Positions 46,569 through 60,966 of a stretch of DNA of 64,000 bases are shown here, one piece after another. The notes beneath the pieces were generated by a model that saw nothing but the letters and a program-made list of their open reading frames with translations, had not been told where the DNA came from and searched no databases. Made by a program: the position numbers and the translations under genes. This DNA comes from Gloeobacter violaceus PCC 7421 (GTDB taxonomy: Bacteria > Cyanobacteriota > Cyanobacteriia > Gloeobacterales > Gloeobacteraceae), in the NCBI RefSeq assembly GCF_000011385.1, contig NC_005125.1:62001-126000 (forward strand). The letters run 5' to 3'. How positions within the stretch are numbered: the stretch's first letter is position 1; every line of letters begins with the position of its first letter.

Positions 46569-47516
46569 TTGCCCGCAACCGATAATCCCATGCCGACACA
46601 CCGAGAGCGGTTGGCGGGGGGTCTGGTGGGTCTGCTGGTGGGGGATGCCCTCGGGGTGCCCTACGAGTTCAACCCATCCACCAACCTGCCCCCCATCGGC
46701 CTGATCAACTTCGAGCCGCCCCCCGGCTACACCCCCACCCACGCGGTCCCGCCCGGTACCTGGTCTGACGACGGGGCGCAGGCGCTGTGTCTGCTCGCCT
46801 CGCTGCTCGACTGCGGACGGCTCGATGCCGAGGATGTTGGCCGTCGGCTGCTGGCCTGGCACGACGAAGGTTATCTGGCCGTCGATGGCTGCGTCTTCGA
46901 TGTCGGCGTCCAGACGGGCGAGGCGCTCGCGGCCCTCAAGGCCGGCACTCCCGCTCTGCGGGCCGGGGCGGCGGATGAGCGAGCCAACGGCAATGGTTCA
47001 CTGATGCGGGTGTTGCCCTTGGCGCTATGGCACCGCGGCGGGGACGCACAACTGGCCCGCGATGCGGCCTTGCAGTCGCAAATTACCCATGGCCACGCCC
47101 GTGCGCAGTTGTGCTGCGCGCTCTATTGCCTGTGGGCACGGCGCATCCTCGAGGGGGCAGCCCAGCCGTGGGCTGCCGCTACGGCAACGGTAAGGACACT
47201 CTATGCCGCCGAACCGATGGCCCTGCGCGAACTGGACGCGGAGATTCGTCCTGAAGCGCCGCCCAGGGGCCGGGGGGGAGCCTACGTCGTCGACTGTCTG
47301 CACTCGGTGCGCTGGGCAGTGGAGGCGGGGCAAACCTACGAGCAGGTGGTGAAGCTTGCCGTCTCGCTGGGCAACGACACCGACACCACCGCCTGTCTGG
47401 CAGGTGGGATCGCCGGACTCCAGCAAGGTATCGAGGCGATCCCTGAGCGCTGGATGCGGCACCTGCGCGGCAGTGAACTGTACAAGCCTTTGCTGGAGCG
47501 ACTTCTAGCACAGTAA
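46569..47516 (+). CDS. ADP-ribosylglycohydrolase family protein (DraG-like)
   Basis: 315 residues from TTG 46569; an ATG at 46590 (MPTHRERLAGG) is an alternative start. The fold signature is visible: LAGGLVGLLVGDALGVPYEF at the N-terminus, TWSDDGAQALCLL (metal ligands), NGNGSLMRVLPLAL and SLGNDTDTTACLAGGIAG (metal-binding D-x-D). It should remove ADP-ribose from proteins or other acceptors. The last 204 bp are repeated in diverged form at 49462-49665, beyond an AT-rich island. Confidence 0.9.
   Translation: MPATDNPMPTHRERLAGGLVGLLVGDALGVPYEFNPSTNLPPIGLINFEPPPGYTPTHAVPPGTWSDDGAQALCLLASLLDCGRLDAEDVGRRLLAWHDEGYLAVDGCVFDVGVQTGEALAALKAGTPALRAGAADERANGNGSLMRVLPLALWHRGGDAQLARDAALQSQITHGHARAQLCCALYCLWARRILEGAAQPWAAATATVRTLYAAEPMALRELDAEIRPEAPPRGRGGAYVVDCLHSVRWAVEAGQTYEQVVKLAVSLGNDTDTTACLAGGIAGLQQGIEAIPERWMRHLRGSELYKPLLERLLAQ
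47313..47516 (+). repeat. 204-bp segment duplicated at 49462-49665 (copy 1)
   Basis: The 3' end of the DraG-like gene, from TGGGCAGTGGAGG to the stop codon, aligns without gaps to 49462-49665 with about 30 differences by hand count (roughly 85% identity). The two copies bracket an AT-rich segment of about 1.9 kb. Confidence 0.85.
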
Positions 47517-47701
47517 CAGTTGCTTTGAGCTTTCTCCCAGATTCTGCAATGCGCCCTATTGAATATGACTGCTAGACGGCTAGGCTTCTCTTTACAGAAA
47601 TGCAACCTGAGCCTTTGCCTGCTAGAGTATGCTTACTGGCAAAAAGCCTCTGCTATGTATAGAATTTGCTTAGCTCGAGTGCATTTTCAGGAGTCGATGA
47701 G

Positions 47702-48904
47702 GTGAACGAAAGGATTGACCAGATTCAGAGTGATGCCACATTGGTGTTCGAGCGCTACGCAAATTACATAAAACATGTCCAGAATGAGTTTTCATCCTTA
47801 GATGAACGCTTGCGCGAATTGAGGTTACATTCGAAGCACTCCTGGCGAGAAAAGATTGAGCAGATTCCTCAAATCTTTCTCTATGCTGTTGACTACGTGA
47901 GCGCCCAGCTCGAACGAGAACCTCTGCAGCGTCTATTGCTCGTCACTCTTAAGCAAATTGCCAAAGGATTGACAGGGCAACTTCCTAGACACGGCGAGCA
48001 AATACGTTATCTCTACAATGACATCAAAACTTTCGTTCAAGAAAATGAGCCTAAGCAGCCTTGGTATTCAAAGTACAAAGGCTACCTTTTTATAGCTGCA
48101 ATATGTGTAACTTTTTACTGGATTTTGCCAGTAGCTCAACGAAAAGAGGTCATTGATTTGGTTCTTGGTTATCAAGACTCTTGGAAGAGTTTTCTTGAGG
48201 GGCTTGGGAGATCGGAACAAATCCACATCACTATGATAGAGTTCGCTTTCGCAGCTTCTCTTTGGTCGCTGATGTTGATTGCGCCATACTTATTATTTCG
48301 TGTCAGTGTAGAGCGCAAGAGACGTACTGTTGTTCGTTTTGCTCAAGAGCTTCCGACGAACTGGAATCCAAGTTCTTTGTACATATTTTACCGCCAGAAA
48401 CCTATGCAACTGCGATTTTCGGAATCAAAGCCCACAGATGTCGAATTGGCTCAGGCTAGGCTTTGGAGAAATTTAGAAGTCAAGCCAGAAGTACGACGTG
48501 AGCATATCACAGAATTTCGGGCAAACCTGATACCTCCGATAGTCATGTTGTTTATCATCCTAGTGATTGAAGCATTTGCGCTCAGGCTCGTAGTGATTCG
48601 ACCGCAAATCTTCGGTTCCATTTGGTTAGCTTTCCTGCTCGGTCTATTGTGTATTGGTTTGCTGCTATGGGAGGTAAAGATAGCGCTAAAGACTCAGAAG
48701 GAATGGCAAACTGTGTTCGAGGCTGAGACTTTTTGGCTTGAGGAAGGACTAGACAGCCAAGTCGAGCTGGACGAGAAACAGATTTCTGAAATTGATTCCA
48801 ATATCGAAGAAGCTTCCATGGAGATTATTGACGGATTACCAGTTGTTCACACGCGAGTGGACACAGATTTGGTCGATGCAATCCGAAGCATGCGAGAAGA
48901 GTGA
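47702..48904 (+). CDS. Novel four-helix membrane protein in an AT-rich island
   Basis: 400 residues from GTG 47702, chosen because AGGAG is 8 nt upstream. A cytoplasmic helical N-terminal region (about residues 1-125, coiled-coil-like: VNERIDQIQSDATLVFERYA) precedes four hydrophobic segments (GYLFIAAICVTFYWILPVA; FAASLWSLMLIAPYLLF; PPIVMLFIILVIEAFALRLV; IWLAFLLGLLCIGLLLW) and an acidic C-terminal tail. No family recognised. Codon use and base composition are visibly AT-richer than in the neighbours. Its stop overlaps the start of the PIN gene (GTGA), so the pair was one translational unit. Confidence 0.75.
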   Translation: MNERIDQIQSDATLVFERYANYIKHVQNEFSSLDERLRELRLHSKHSWREKIEQIPQIFLYAVDYVSAQLEREPLQRLLLVTLKQIAKGLTGQLPRHGEQIRYLYNDIKTFVQENEPKQPWYSKYKGYLFIAAICVTFYWILPVAQRKEVIDLVLGYQDSWKSFLEGLGRSEQIHITMIEFAFAASLWSLMLIAPYLLFRVSVERKRRTVVRFAQELPTNWNPSSLYIFYRQKPMQLRFSESKPTDVELAQARLWRNLEVKPEVRREHITEFRANLIPPIVMLFIILVIEAFALRLVVIRPQIFGSIWLAFLLGLLCIGLLLWEVKIALKTQKEWQTVFEAETFWLEEGLDSQVELDEKQISEIDSNIEEASMEIIDGLPVVHTRVDTDLVDAIRSMREE

Positions 48905-49332
48905 GATTACTTTTCGACACAAACACCCTTATTGCAAGCTCTGTTCCAGGCCATCCCGATAGGGAGAGGTGCCTTCCCCTATTGCAAGAAGTTATCTCTA
49001 GCGTTGCCGAGGGCTATATTTCCACTCATTCACTCAGTGAATATTATCGGTATATGACCGGGAAAGCATAGCCGCAGTTAAGTCCTAGAAATACAGAAAA
49101 GGCTATCCGCCAACTATTGGTTAACTTCACTGCTGTTAACCTTGACGAAGGTGATTATCTCGCTATCTTTGCTCGAATGAGCATCCAGTCTCTTCATGGC
49201 GCAATCGTCTATGACGCGATTATAGCTCAGGCCGCACTAAAGGCAAAAGTTGACTATATTGTTACTCTAAACACGTATGATTTTCAGCGTCTAGGATCTG
49301 ATATAGCCTCACTTGTTTTTGTTTTTCAATAG
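48901..49332 (+). pseudogene. PIN-domain toxin gene interrupted by one in-frame TAG
   Basis: Starting at GTG 48901 the frame reads RLLFDTNTLIASSVPGHPDR and STHSLSEYYRYMTGKA, stops at TAG 49069-49071, and then continues in the same frame to TAG 49330-49332 (PQLSPRNTEKAI, VYDAIIAQAALKAKVDYIVT, NTYDFQRLG). Both halves match one PIN ribonuclease: D in LFDTN, E in LSEYY and D in YDAIIA are the acidic active-site residues. So a 143-codon gene carries a single nonsense codon at position 57. Sequencing error or recent inactivation cannot be told apart here. Confidence 0.8.
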
Positions 49333-49461
49333 GAGTAACGACCGAGATACCAACCGGTGTAGTTCGTTCATTGGAAGTGGCGGCGGCAATCGGCCAAGCC
49401 ATCTTGTGTACGAGGTTCGACAAATTCGAGGCTGCAGAAAATCGCTATGGTGAACTGGCAC

Positions 49462-49665
49462 TGGGCGGTGGAGGCGGGGGGAGCCTATGAGCAGGTGGTG
49501 AAGCTTGCCGTCTCGCTAGGTAACGACACCGACACCACCGCCTGTCTGGCGGGTGGGATCGCCGGGCTCCAGCAAGGTATCGAGGCGATCCCCGAGCGCT
49601 GGCAGGCGCGTTTGCGCGGCGGAGCGCTCTACAGGCCTTTGCTGGAACGGCTGCTGGCTGGGTAA
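49462..49665 (+). pseudogene. Truncated second copy of the DraG-like gene 3' end
   Basis: The frame continues to TAA 49663-49665 and encodes the last about 67 residues of a DraG-like protein (AYEQVVKLAVSLGNDTDTTA, then ERWQARLRGGALYRPLLERL), about 85% identical at DNA level to 47313-47516. Homology begins sharply at 49462; the preceding 129 bp (49333-49461) match neither copy. An ATG at 49447 could start a short product. It is a remnant of a tandem paralogue or a by-product of island insertion. Confidence 0.8.
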
Positions 49666-58897: not shown

Positions 58898-59047
58898 GAC
58901 AGGTTGTGTAATTGAGCTTCGTTATCGTACACCGACTGCCCTGGATGGGTAAGCCGTAGCCCGGCTGCCTGATATCGCTCCCGGGACGCAGGTCGATCCA
59001 AAGCTGGAGATACTAGTCTGTAGACGTTTCGGCGTAGGTTGGCAGCC

Positions 59048-59533
59048 ATGCATCGGATCCTTGCTTTGTTGATTGGCGGTTACGGAGGCGCTTCACCTCT
59101 GGCGGATGTGGGCTTGTTGGTATTGCGGGTGTTTGCTGGGCTCACGATGGCGGTCCATGGCCTCGGCAAGGTGCCGCCCAACGAAGGGCTGGTGGAGACG
59201 GTGGCGAGCCTGGGCTTCCCGGCGCCGGTCTTTTTTGCCTGGTCGGCGGGCCTTGCCGAACTGGTGGGGGGCATTCTTCTGGCAGTTGGCCTTTTGACCC
59301 GGCCGGCGGCGGCGGCGGTTCTCTTTACGATGCTGGTGGCAGGCTTCATCCTGCACGGCTCCCAGCCTTTTGCTGAAAAAGAACTGGCCCTGTTGTACGC
59401 TGCGGTGTCGTTCGCCTTTTTGTTGGTGGGAGCGGGACGGTATAGCCTCGACGGGTTGATTGGCGGGCGGTTGCTGGGCAGCGGTGCGGGGGGGCGGCCT
59501 CTCGGCCGCGACCGCGCCCCTTCACCCCGTTAG
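59048..59533 (+). CDS. DoxX-family membrane protein
   Basis: 161 residues from ATG 59048. Four hydrophobic helices in DoxX order: LVLRVFAGLTMAVHGLGK, FFAWSAGLAELVGGILLAVG, AAAVLFTMLVAGFILHG and ELALLYAAVSFAFLLVGAG, ending in RYSLDGLIG. The function is related to quinol or thiosulfate metabolism in some species, otherwise unknown. The stop codon lies inside a 16-bp direct repeat. Confidence 0.85.
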   Translation: MHRILALLIGGYGGASPLADVGLLVLRVFAGLTMAVHGLGKVPPNEGLVETVASLGFPAPVFFAWSAGLAELVGGILLAVGLLTRPAAAAVLFTMLVAGFILHGSQPFAEKELALLYAAVSFAFLLVGAGRYSLDGLIGGRLLGSGAGGRPLGRDRAPSPR

Positions 59534-59534
59534 C
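59519..59534 (+). repeat. 16-bp direct repeat, left copy
   Basis: CCTTCACCCCGTTAGC, at the end of the DoxX gene (covering its stop codon). The identical sequence occurs at 60267-60282 and the two bracket the toxin-antitoxin pair. Confidence 0.9.
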
Positions 59535-59669
59535 TTAGGAGCAAGCCGGGTTAGCGAATAGGCTGTTGCGCCCGGAACGTCATTTCTGGGGCGTGTTCGC
59601 AAGAAAAAAACGTTGCATGACAGTTTGTTCAGAAATATGGTTAAGGAACCAAGAAGGGTTGAAACCGAC

Positions 59670-59867
59670 ATGCAATGCGAAGAGAAAGATCTATTTGACA
59701 AAATTCGCAGCCTGCCGCCGGAGAAACTCGCGGAAGTTGCGGATTTCGTCGATTTTCTTTATCAACGCGAACAGGCGCGCCTGACACAAGCGAGCAGTGC
59801 GCTGTCGGAAGATTCCTTCCGTCGGATTTGGGACAATACCGAAGATGCCGTCTACGATACCCTATGA
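59670..59867 (+). CDS. Small antitoxin-like protein
   Basis: 65 residues from ATG 59670; ATGs at 59613 and 59637 are alternatives. The pattern LFDKIRSLPPEKLAEVADFVDFL resembles short DUF2281-type antitoxins. It overlaps the start of the toxin gene by 23 bp, which is typical for type II pairs. Confidence 0.7.
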   Translation: MQCEEKDLFDKIRSLPPEKLAEVADFVDFLYQREQARLTQASSALSEDSFRRIWDNTEDAVYDTL

Positions 59868-60192
59868 TTTTGGAGATATCATTCTGGTTGCATTCCCGTT
59901 CAGCGATCTCAAAACCAAGAAGAAACGTCCTGCTGTTGTTGTGAGTTCTTCTTTCTATCAGACTCGTTATCCTGACGTTATTTTGATGGCTGTCACCAGC
60001 CAGATCCAAACACCACAGTATCCGGGTGAAGTTTTAATAGCTGATTGGCAAGCAGCAGGTCTGCTCAAAGCATCTGTTACAAAGCCCGTTTTGGCAACCG
60101 TGGAAACGGAACTGATCATTAGAAAACTAGGGCAATTAGCCTCAGCAGATCAAGAAGCAGTACGAGCAACGTTGCTGATTATCTTTGGATAA
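59845..60192 (+). CDS. MazF/PemK-type toxin
   Basis: 115 residues from ATG 59845, in the 3' end of the antitoxin gene. Motifs include YDFGDIILVAFPFSDLKTKKK-like start, RPAVVVSSS and LMAVTSQIQ, with a KPVLATVETELI core, typical of PemK/MazF ribonucleases. It is distinct from the mazF at 33140. Confidence 0.85.
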   Translation: MPSTIPYDFGDIILVAFPFSDLKTKKKRPAVVVSSSFYQTRYPDVILMAVTSQIQTPQYPGEVLIADWQAAGLLKASVTKPVLATVETELIIRKLGQLASADQEAVRATLLIIFG

Positions 60193-60266
60193 ATAGCAGT
60201 GATTAGACCAGGACATGTCAACCGCACATAGGCTGAACATAAATCTATACCGTGCGCTGCATCACT

Positions 60267-60282
60267 CCTTCACCCCGTTAGC
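60267..60282 (+). repeat. 16-bp direct repeat, right copy
   Basis: CCTTCACCCCGTTAGC, identical to 59519-59534, three bases before the 3' end of menG. Between the copies lies about 730 bp holding only the toxin-antitoxin pair; the 60193-60266 remainder is AT-richer and non-coding. Confidence 0.9.
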
Positions 60283-60285
60283 GGC

Positions 60286-60966
60286 TTATTGCGCCACCAG
60301 CACCCCAACCGTTCCACCGATCAACGGATAGTGGCTCGCTTGGCTAAATCCGGCTTGCTGGGCCAGCCGCACCTGCTCGTCTCCTGTAGGAAAGCGCTCC
60401 AGGCTCGGGGCGATGTAGGCGTACTCGGCCTCCAGGCCTTGGGCGCGGCCGAGTGCCGTGACCCAGCCTTCAAGATACCAGCGCTGAAAAGCCCGCCACC
60501 CGGCGTCGGCCGGGGCGTGCAAATCGAGAATCACCGCTCGGCCGCCGGGTTTGAGCACCCGACGCAGCTGTGCGAAGCAGGCGGGAATATCGACGACGTT
60601 GCGCAGTCCGAAACCCTGAGTCACCGCGTCGAAGCTGTCGTCGGCAAAAGGCAAATCCAGGGCGTCCGCTTCGAGCCAACGCACCCGCCCTTCGCGATCG
60701 CGGCGGCGGGCCTGGGCCAGCTGGGCGGCGGCAAAATCGACCCCCCAGACCGTACCGGCGACCCCCACCCGCCGGGCGAGCAAAAAAGCCAGATCGCCGG
60801 TGCCGCAGCACAGATCGAGCACCGTATCCCCCGGCTTGCAATCGGTCCAACGGATGGCCATCTTCTTCCAGACCCGGTGCAAACCGAAGCTCATCCGGTC
60901 ATTGATCTGGTCATAGACCGGCGCAATGGCGTTGAAGATGCCCTGGATCTCCTGGCTACCCTGCAT
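60286..60966 (-). CDS. menG: Demethylphylloquinone/demethylmenaquinone methyltransferase
   Basis: 226 residues from ATG 60966. The SAM-binding motif is VLDLCCGTGDLAFLL, with the UbiE signatures IFNAIAPVYDQINDRMSFGL and AVTQGFGLRNVVDIPACFAQ, and RVLKPGGRAVIL. It adds the last methyl group of phylloquinone or menaquinone, needed for photosystem I. The ATG overlaps the mobA stop by one base. Confidence 0.93.
   Translation of the reverse strand: MQGSQEIQGIFNAIAPVYDQINDRMSFGLHRVWKKMAIRWTDCKPGDTVLDLCCGTGDLAFLLARRVGVAGTVWGVDFAAAQLAQARRRDREGRVRWLEADALDLPFADDSFDAVTQGFGLRNVVDIPACFAQLRRVLKPGGRAVILDLHAPADAGWRAFQRWYLEGWVTALGRAQGLEAEYAYIAPSLERFPTGDEQVRLAQQAGFSQASHYPLIGGTVGVLVAQ

Follow-up and report, generated by a model that had tools for sequence, protein, structure and literature searches.

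A MazF/DUF2281-type module between the convergent ends of DoxX and menG in Gloeobacter violaceus, bracketed by a repeated DoxX tail

The closest known system to the locus described here is the insertion with long target duplication of restriction-modification genes, reportedly described by Nobusato et al. 2000 (Gene 259:99) and Furuta et al. 2010. According to PMC3874152 (also PMC3031569 and PMC1643837), the target duplications that accompany the insertion of restriction-modification systems are long and variable, on the scale of 100 bp. A second process, known from competent bacteria, is homology-assisted illegitimate integration (PMC2884548); homology-facilitated illegitimate recombination also appears in the abstract of PMC3240628. 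The question of how toxin-antitoxin modules that lack a recombinase gene pass from one chromosome to another is open. Integrative elements that enter at gene 3' ends (attL/attR) leave a restored gene end and a displaced tail. Among the literature matches listed, mostly titles and the beginnings of abstracts, no report of tail-bracketed toxin-antitoxin modules in Gloeobacter or other cyanobacteria was found.

A toxin-antitoxin pair between two copies of the DoxX tail

The window analyzed here is a stretch of 64,000 nucleotides from the Gloeobacter violaceus genome. An earlier note on this DNA had described a MazF-type pair lying between exact 16-bp direct repeats. Both copies of the repeat, CCTTCACCCCGTTAGC, were recovered at 59519-59534 and 60267-60282, and the DNA between them does hold such a pair. 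The features of the locus are as follows.

59039..59533, plus strand: DoxX-family gene, the left neighbor, whose 3' end forms the repeat (PF07681, E 5.4e-22)
59519..59534, plus strand: copy 1 of the exact repeat, the PSPR-stop of DoxX and one further base
59670..59867, plus strand: antitoxin-like ORF, DUF2281/VapB-like (PF10047, E 1.2e-5; NF050009, E 2.2e-4, below the cut-off)
59845..60192, plus strand: PemK/MazF-family toxin gene (PF02452, E 3.5e-16; aligned with eight cyanobacterial homologues)
60267..60282, plus strand: copy 2 of the exact repeat, separated from the stop codon of menG by 3 bases
60286..60966, minus strand: menG/ubiE-type methyltransferase gene, the convergent right neighbor (PF01209, E 1.3e-52)

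The DoxX stop codon (TAG, 59531-59533) lies inside copy 1, as the earlier note had it. The same note placed copy 2 directly against the menG stop, which is nearly the case; copy 2 ends 3 bases short of it (TTA at 60286-60288, minus strand). The DNA between the copies was correctly called AT-richer, with a GC content of 46.9% versus 61.9% for the window. The possibility that the 16-mer is a common genome repeat was ruled out, with only two copies in the 4,659,019 bases of the genome and no third even when one mismatch is allowed. A search of 30 genomes returned matches with one mismatch in three distant genomes, about the same as for a reversed control pattern, and these matches were taken as chance.

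A chance repeat next to an ordinary insertion is, in our estimate, very improbable. Similar pairs do exist in the genome: 464 kb contained 73 exact pairs of at least 16 bp within 1 kb, the majority of which, judged by inspection, lie in repetitive coding DNA. Against chance stand the position of the pair, which coincides with the DoxX stop codon on one side and lies 3 bases from that of menG on the other, the absence of the 16-mer from the rest of the genome, and an interior that is the most AT-rich among the pairs listed (at least 15 bp), barring one tandem pair without an interior. An exact direct repeat of at least 16 bp within 1 kb occurred in none of 60 dinucleotide-shuffled windows (local shuffle), and the parallel cases presented below also speak against coincidence.

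The pair occupies most of the insert; further ORFs, of at most 122 aa, overlap it in other frames. The antitoxin-like ORF, for which a longer alternative start exists at 59613, comes first, and the toxin start at 59845 and the antitoxin end at 59867 create a 23-base overlap. Toxin family and overlapping two-ORF order are those of PemK/MazF type II toxin-antitoxin modules (PF02452), from which the pair differs in its antitoxin, a match to PF10047 (DUF2281) of 26.2 bits, just under the Pfam cut-off of 26.5. The toxin scores 59.8 bits against PF02452 (cut-off 23.1) and falls far below the cut-off of the NCBIfam MazF equivalog (26 bits versus 120). MazF homologues with an E value of 1e-10 or better occur in 134 of 388 genomes of the class, with identities of about 49-58% for the closest among the matches listed. 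An antitoxin match directly precedes the toxin in 25 of 29 homologue loci (tblastn, E up to 1; some of these matches are short or weak). No further copy of the module was found in the Gloeobacter violaceus genome. Neither PADLOC nor a search of solved structures gave a match for the pair or the toxin, and searches of plasmids and phages returned 17 and 2 records, respectively, every one below 60% identity. Judged from its sequence, the toxin-antitoxin pair itself is ordinary, with nothing unusual about it.

Pfam profiles revealed no transposase or integrase in the insert, most of which is filled by the pair, and no inverted pair was found at both insert ends. An insertion sequence or transposon was rejected, there being neither a transposase nor terminal inverted repeats at the insert. 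Integron cassettes carry the core GTTRRRY at both ends; the insert ends GTTAGCT and GTTAGCG break this motif, and an integron gene cassette was rejected as well.

Site-specific integration into the DoxX 3' end would make the 16-mer the att core of an integrase, and the module either a remnant or a unit mobilized in trans. The gene-tail repeats and restored gene ends do resemble the attL/attR of elements residing at gene 3' ends. However, the insert contains no integrase, the three matches to PF00589 (tyrosine recombinase) in the genome all lie more than 350 kb from it, and each of the parallel cases uses a different gene tail, so that several integrases would be needed. We regard this route as improbable.

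The DoxX-menG junction in related genomes

The 30 genomes searched include six of the family, that of Gloeobacter violaceus itself (G000) and five relatives (G001-G005). Two genomes of the same genus, G001 and G003, keep DoxX. In both, homology on the left side stops at 59527, inside copy 1, and on the right side resumes at 60293/60294; the insert, the whole of copy 2, and a portion of copy 1 thus have no counterpart there.

59528..60292, no strand: DNA without counterpart at the junction in G001 and G003, delimited by the homology limits

The earlier note had suggested looking for relatives in which DoxX and menG are adjacent and share a single 16-mer. None was found: even with one mismatch allowed, the 16-mer matches none of the five relatives in the family, and these genomes therefore offer no empty site at DoxX-menG.

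The DoxX-menG gap of G003 (locus L036, 2317-5150) is about 2.8 kb long and combines IS-like stretches, which are repeated many times across genomes of the genus, with a PIN-domain gene and an AF2212-like antitoxin gene. The multi-copy stretches, in which two ORFs have no Pfam match, are read as insertion-sequence debris. Given the PIN/AF2212-like pair, the junction took toxin-antitoxin-type genes at least twice in the genus. Both contigs of G001 terminate inside the gap. About 120 bases 3' of DoxX are common to G001 and G003 (84% over 146 bases including the gene end) and are missing from G000.

The C-terminal end of menG reads ...VLVAQ-stop in G000 and G005, ...VLVAG-stop in G002, and ...LILSF-stop in G004; the last menG codons are altered in both G001 and G003. 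From these sequences the menG side of the G000 junction appears ancestral, and the DoxX side cannot be polarized. DoxX ends in PSPR-stop in G000, G001, and G003 alike. Over the last 15 bases G000 differs from G001 and G003 at five positions, the amino acids being unchanged, and G001 and G003 do not differ from one another (0/15). The comparison of this tail with the rest of the gene gives 5/15 versus 37/480 differences to G001 (p = 0.006) and 5/15 versus 48/480 to G003 (p = 0.015). The idea that the module flanks contain a decayed end of menG or intergenic DNA in common was also considered and rejected: none of eight local alignments was clearly above shuffles, and the best of them (right versus left flank) was equaled by 46 of 300 shuffles.

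Parallel inserts behind gene tails

A tail-anchored scan of G000, over 864 kb, looked for genes whose 3' end recurs 0.25-4 kb downstream. Such a repeat was found for 4 of 732 genes: DoxX, an SSF symporter gene, a zf-UBP gene, and a whole-gene paralogue (the match of L107 and L173), the last of which was left out of the tail-duplication cases. The gaps of all four matches are AT-rich (GC 0.47-0.52). Three internal anchor positions in genes of at least 700 nt, used as a control, gave seven matches, all with gaps of normal GC content. A gapped scan added the 201-bp tail of an ADP-ribosylglycohydrolase gene in the window and a 177-bp accA tail in G005. The further tail-bracketed inserts number five: one in the window, two in an 800-kb sample of G000, and two in G005. 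The window and the G005 stretch are selected regions, and the two cases in the 800 kb of G000 are the yield of unselected sequence.

The repeats of the parallel cases are 42, 80, 170, 177, and 201 bp long, and that of DoxX 16 bp. Five of the six inserts carry toxin or toxin-antitoxin-like genes, one of them by a weak match alone. All six lie at convergent gene ends, versus a background of 326/716 (crude gene calls; p about 0.01), a modest bias that was sought after the fact. Since the repeats of the parallel inserts differ (42-201 bp) and each is the 3' end of the adjacent gene, the 16-mer is better read as a duplicated DoxX gene tail beyond an insert than as a recognition site. The earlier note had taken the repeats for target or recombination sites left by acquisition. 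Acquisition is supported by an insert that is lineage-specific relative to G001 and G003 and by a repeat unique in the genome; a general target sequence is not.

In two cases a sister genome has the empty site, with one tail: G003 for the ADP-ribosylglycohydrolase gene and G001 for the zf-UBP gene. The ADP-ribosylglycohydrolase case occupies 46569-49665 of the window.

46569..47516, plus strand: ADP-ribosylglycohydrolase gene with a foreign-looking 3' end (PF03747, E 2.6e-68; comparison with G003)
47517..49457, no strand: AT-rich insert (GC 0.446) containing an ORF of 412 aa and a disrupted PIN-type ORF
49458..49665, plus strand: displaced tail of the ADP-ribosylglycohydrolase gene, native at its end (3/78 differences to the single tail of G003)

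The tail repeat measures 201 bp, is 86% identical, and spans a 1.95-kb gap at 44.6% GC. The insert is common to G000 and G001; G003 has no insert and a single tail. The 412-aa ORF (47666-48904) matches nothing in Pfam or NCBIfam. The PIN-type ORF (48901-49332) is interrupted by an in-frame TAG, and neither piece in the window has a Pfam match; its intact homologue in G001 matches PF13470 (E 2.6e-9). Compared with G003, the gene-attached copy has 24 differences in the last 78 nt and 41 in the 870 nt before (Fisher p = 8e-12), and the displaced copy 3/78 at its end and 14/129 before (p = 0.115). Judging from these differences, the insert seems to have brought a foreign gene end with it, and the native end seems to have been displaced to its other side. 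For the reciprocal half of the exchange there is a trend only (p = 0.115), and fast evolution of the gene's end could also have produced its foreign look.

The zf-UBP insert, whose cargo is two small ORFs without a Pfam match, is missing from G001, where one tail is followed by the same downstream gene; G003 likewise has one tail, with different DNA behind it. The two tail copies differ at 4/76 positions and show 3-4 differences of 76 to each relative, which is uninformative on the donor tail. These figures bear on a further explanation, a target-site duplication in which a transposase or the fill-in of a staggered break doubled a single 16-bp stretch when the module entered. Two identical 16-mers flanking the insert are what it would produce, and tails differing by only 4/76 are compatible with identity at birth. 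We nevertheless consider it unlikely, since the insert has no transposase and no inverted pair at both ends, repeats of 16 to 201 bp speak against a transposase with a fixed stagger, and the foreign tail end of the ADP-ribosylglycohydrolase case is not expected from simple duplication.

In the SSF symporter case (L122, 12107-13491), a 170-bp, 85% identical tail repeat lies beyond a PARP-like ORF that is below the cut-off. A clean empty site is lacking, the first 69 bases of the gap being common with G003 and the first 107 with G001. The two copies differ at one of the last 61 bases, far less often than over the remainder, which would fit a later homogenization of the tail end.

In G005, a homologous MazF module is flanked by a 42-bp, 95% identical repeat that comprises the last 13 codons and the stop of a glycosyltransferase gene, and the stop of the convergent neighbor lies 4 bases past the displaced copy. 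The toxin frame of this pair is interrupted by a stop, and the insert is scarcely AT-richer than its surroundings (GC 0.52 versus 0.54). The accA tail repeat (177 bp, 82%) encloses a gap of 45.8% GC with an RHH and PIN pair as cargo. The accA case (L078, 1674-2865) is located on the same 9-kb stretch of G005 as the MazF-flanking glycosyltransferase.

Head duplications in G000 numbered 14, a count not strictly comparable with that for tails, as the start criterion was looser; 11 of them score 14-16, two of the other three lie in the L107 array, and one lies in L109 with a gap GC of 0.59. In the relatives, one head match in G003 has normal GC, and one in G001 is a gene tail on the opposite strand. 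The tail scan of 20 other cyanobacterial toxin-antitoxin loci gave 19 matches, 18 from a regular repeat array in L139 that is CRISPR-like by eye and one with a score of 14. The 16 pairs with AT-rich gaps from the gapped scan include the reported cases; seven lie in L107, two weak ones in L111, and one in L121, for which no gene tail was found. L107 (174-9284) and L173 (11831-17138) contain arrays of repeated regions with differing ends and paralogous 282-aa ORFs. These arrays presumably resemble polymorphic toxin systems.

Among the homologous MazF modules, an exact flanking repeat of at least 16 bp was present in 3 of 29 loci, one of them an interspersed repeat. Longer stretches were taken for 20 of the 29 loci, the remainder being mostly on short contigs. 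Flanking repeats with a score of at least 16 were found in 6 of 22 loci (the window, L078, and 20 others) versus 1.6% of 6,928 overlapping control windows. L139 (seemingly the leader of a neighboring module), L149 (repeat units), and L152 (an interspersed repeat) were set aside by inspection alone. At L147 (9712-10465), in a different cyanobacterium, a 49-bp repeat (92% identical) that ends just past a stop codon flanks a homologous MazF pair; the adjoining pair is one we assume to be HicBA-like from its appearance.

Origin of the repeated tail and comparison with described systems

The reading we prefer, with a probability of roughly 0.6, is that a MazF/DUF2281-type module was inserted at the convergent ends of DoxX and menG, with the DoxX tail repeated on both sides, as one of a series of such events in the Gloeobacteraceae. 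The acquired module would have entered at the nearly touching 3' ends of the two genes, leaving the last 16 DoxX bases (four codons, the stop, and one base) on either side. Both genes remain whole, since DoxX is completed by copy 1 and copy 2 falls outside menG. Across the series, DNA that is usually AT-rich and often toxin-bearing would enter behind a gene, and the gene's tail would recur on the far side. The underlying step would be recombination between the resident gene tail and incoming DNA with its own version of that 3' end, either as a single crossover with a circle or as a homology-anchored integration whose other end was joined illegitimately. The donor tail in the ADP-ribosylglycohydrolase case favors homology-anchored uptake. 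Selection would retain only products that leave both genes whole; a tail-duplicating insertion between near-touching convergent ends spares both, and this is perhaps why the repeats end at stop codons. In favor of this reading count the uniqueness of the repeat in the genome, its end one base past the DoxX stop, homology limits in two relatives that fall within about 10 bases of the repeats, and the silent recoding of the last DoxX bases. That the DoxX insert shares its origin with the parallel cases is our inference, as is the recombination step itself.

Several findings count against this reading. No relative searched has an empty site at DoxX-menG. The repeat is the shortest of the series, and 16 bp is short for homologous recombination, under the homology usually needed. 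In addition, copy 2 is unlike the DoxX end of G001 and G003, which is contrary to a native displaced tail unless those lineages changed. Most of the homologous modules elsewhere have no flanking repeat, the symporter case lacks a clean empty site, and the MazF insert of G005 hardly stands out in GC content. The mechanism proposed for DoxX itself, with a short and identical repeat, is tentative.

A more general scheme is put forward tentatively, and we hold it to be doubtful. In the Gloeobacteraceae, small cargo units without an integrase, mostly toxin-antitoxin modules, might travel together with a copy of the 3' end of a host gene and use a single crossover at that tail for entry, with a preference for convergent junctions; the host would then receive the donor tail, with its native tail on the far side, and the 16-mer at DoxX would represent the shortest case observed. 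Inserts flanked by a duplicated gene tail provide a simple signature for finding such acquisitions in other genomes, and comparable scars (repeat length, empty sites, donor or native tail) would let homology-anchored uptake be tested against duplication by a cut.

As in the long target duplications of restriction-modification genes, a selfish module with no known mobile element appears to be accompanied by direct duplications of variable length that are seen by comparing related genomes. In contrast to that system, the cargo here consists of toxin-antitoxin, PIN, and other genes, the host is a cyanobacterium, the duplication affects a gene tail at a convergent junction, and one of the cases has a foreign gene-attached end. 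At 16 bp, the repeat at DoxX is also far shorter than the approximately 100 bp quoted for restriction-modification systems. The single-copy empty site by which a long target duplication is recognized is lacking at DoxX-menG and present for two of the parallel cases. The inserts differ from the attL/attR integrative elements in that no integrase was found and the target gene is another one every time. Homology-facilitated illegitimate recombination is an experimentally described process, whereas the Gloeobacteraceae cases are known from their products alone. One homologous end combined with an illegitimate join would give a donor-type gene end and a displaced native tail.
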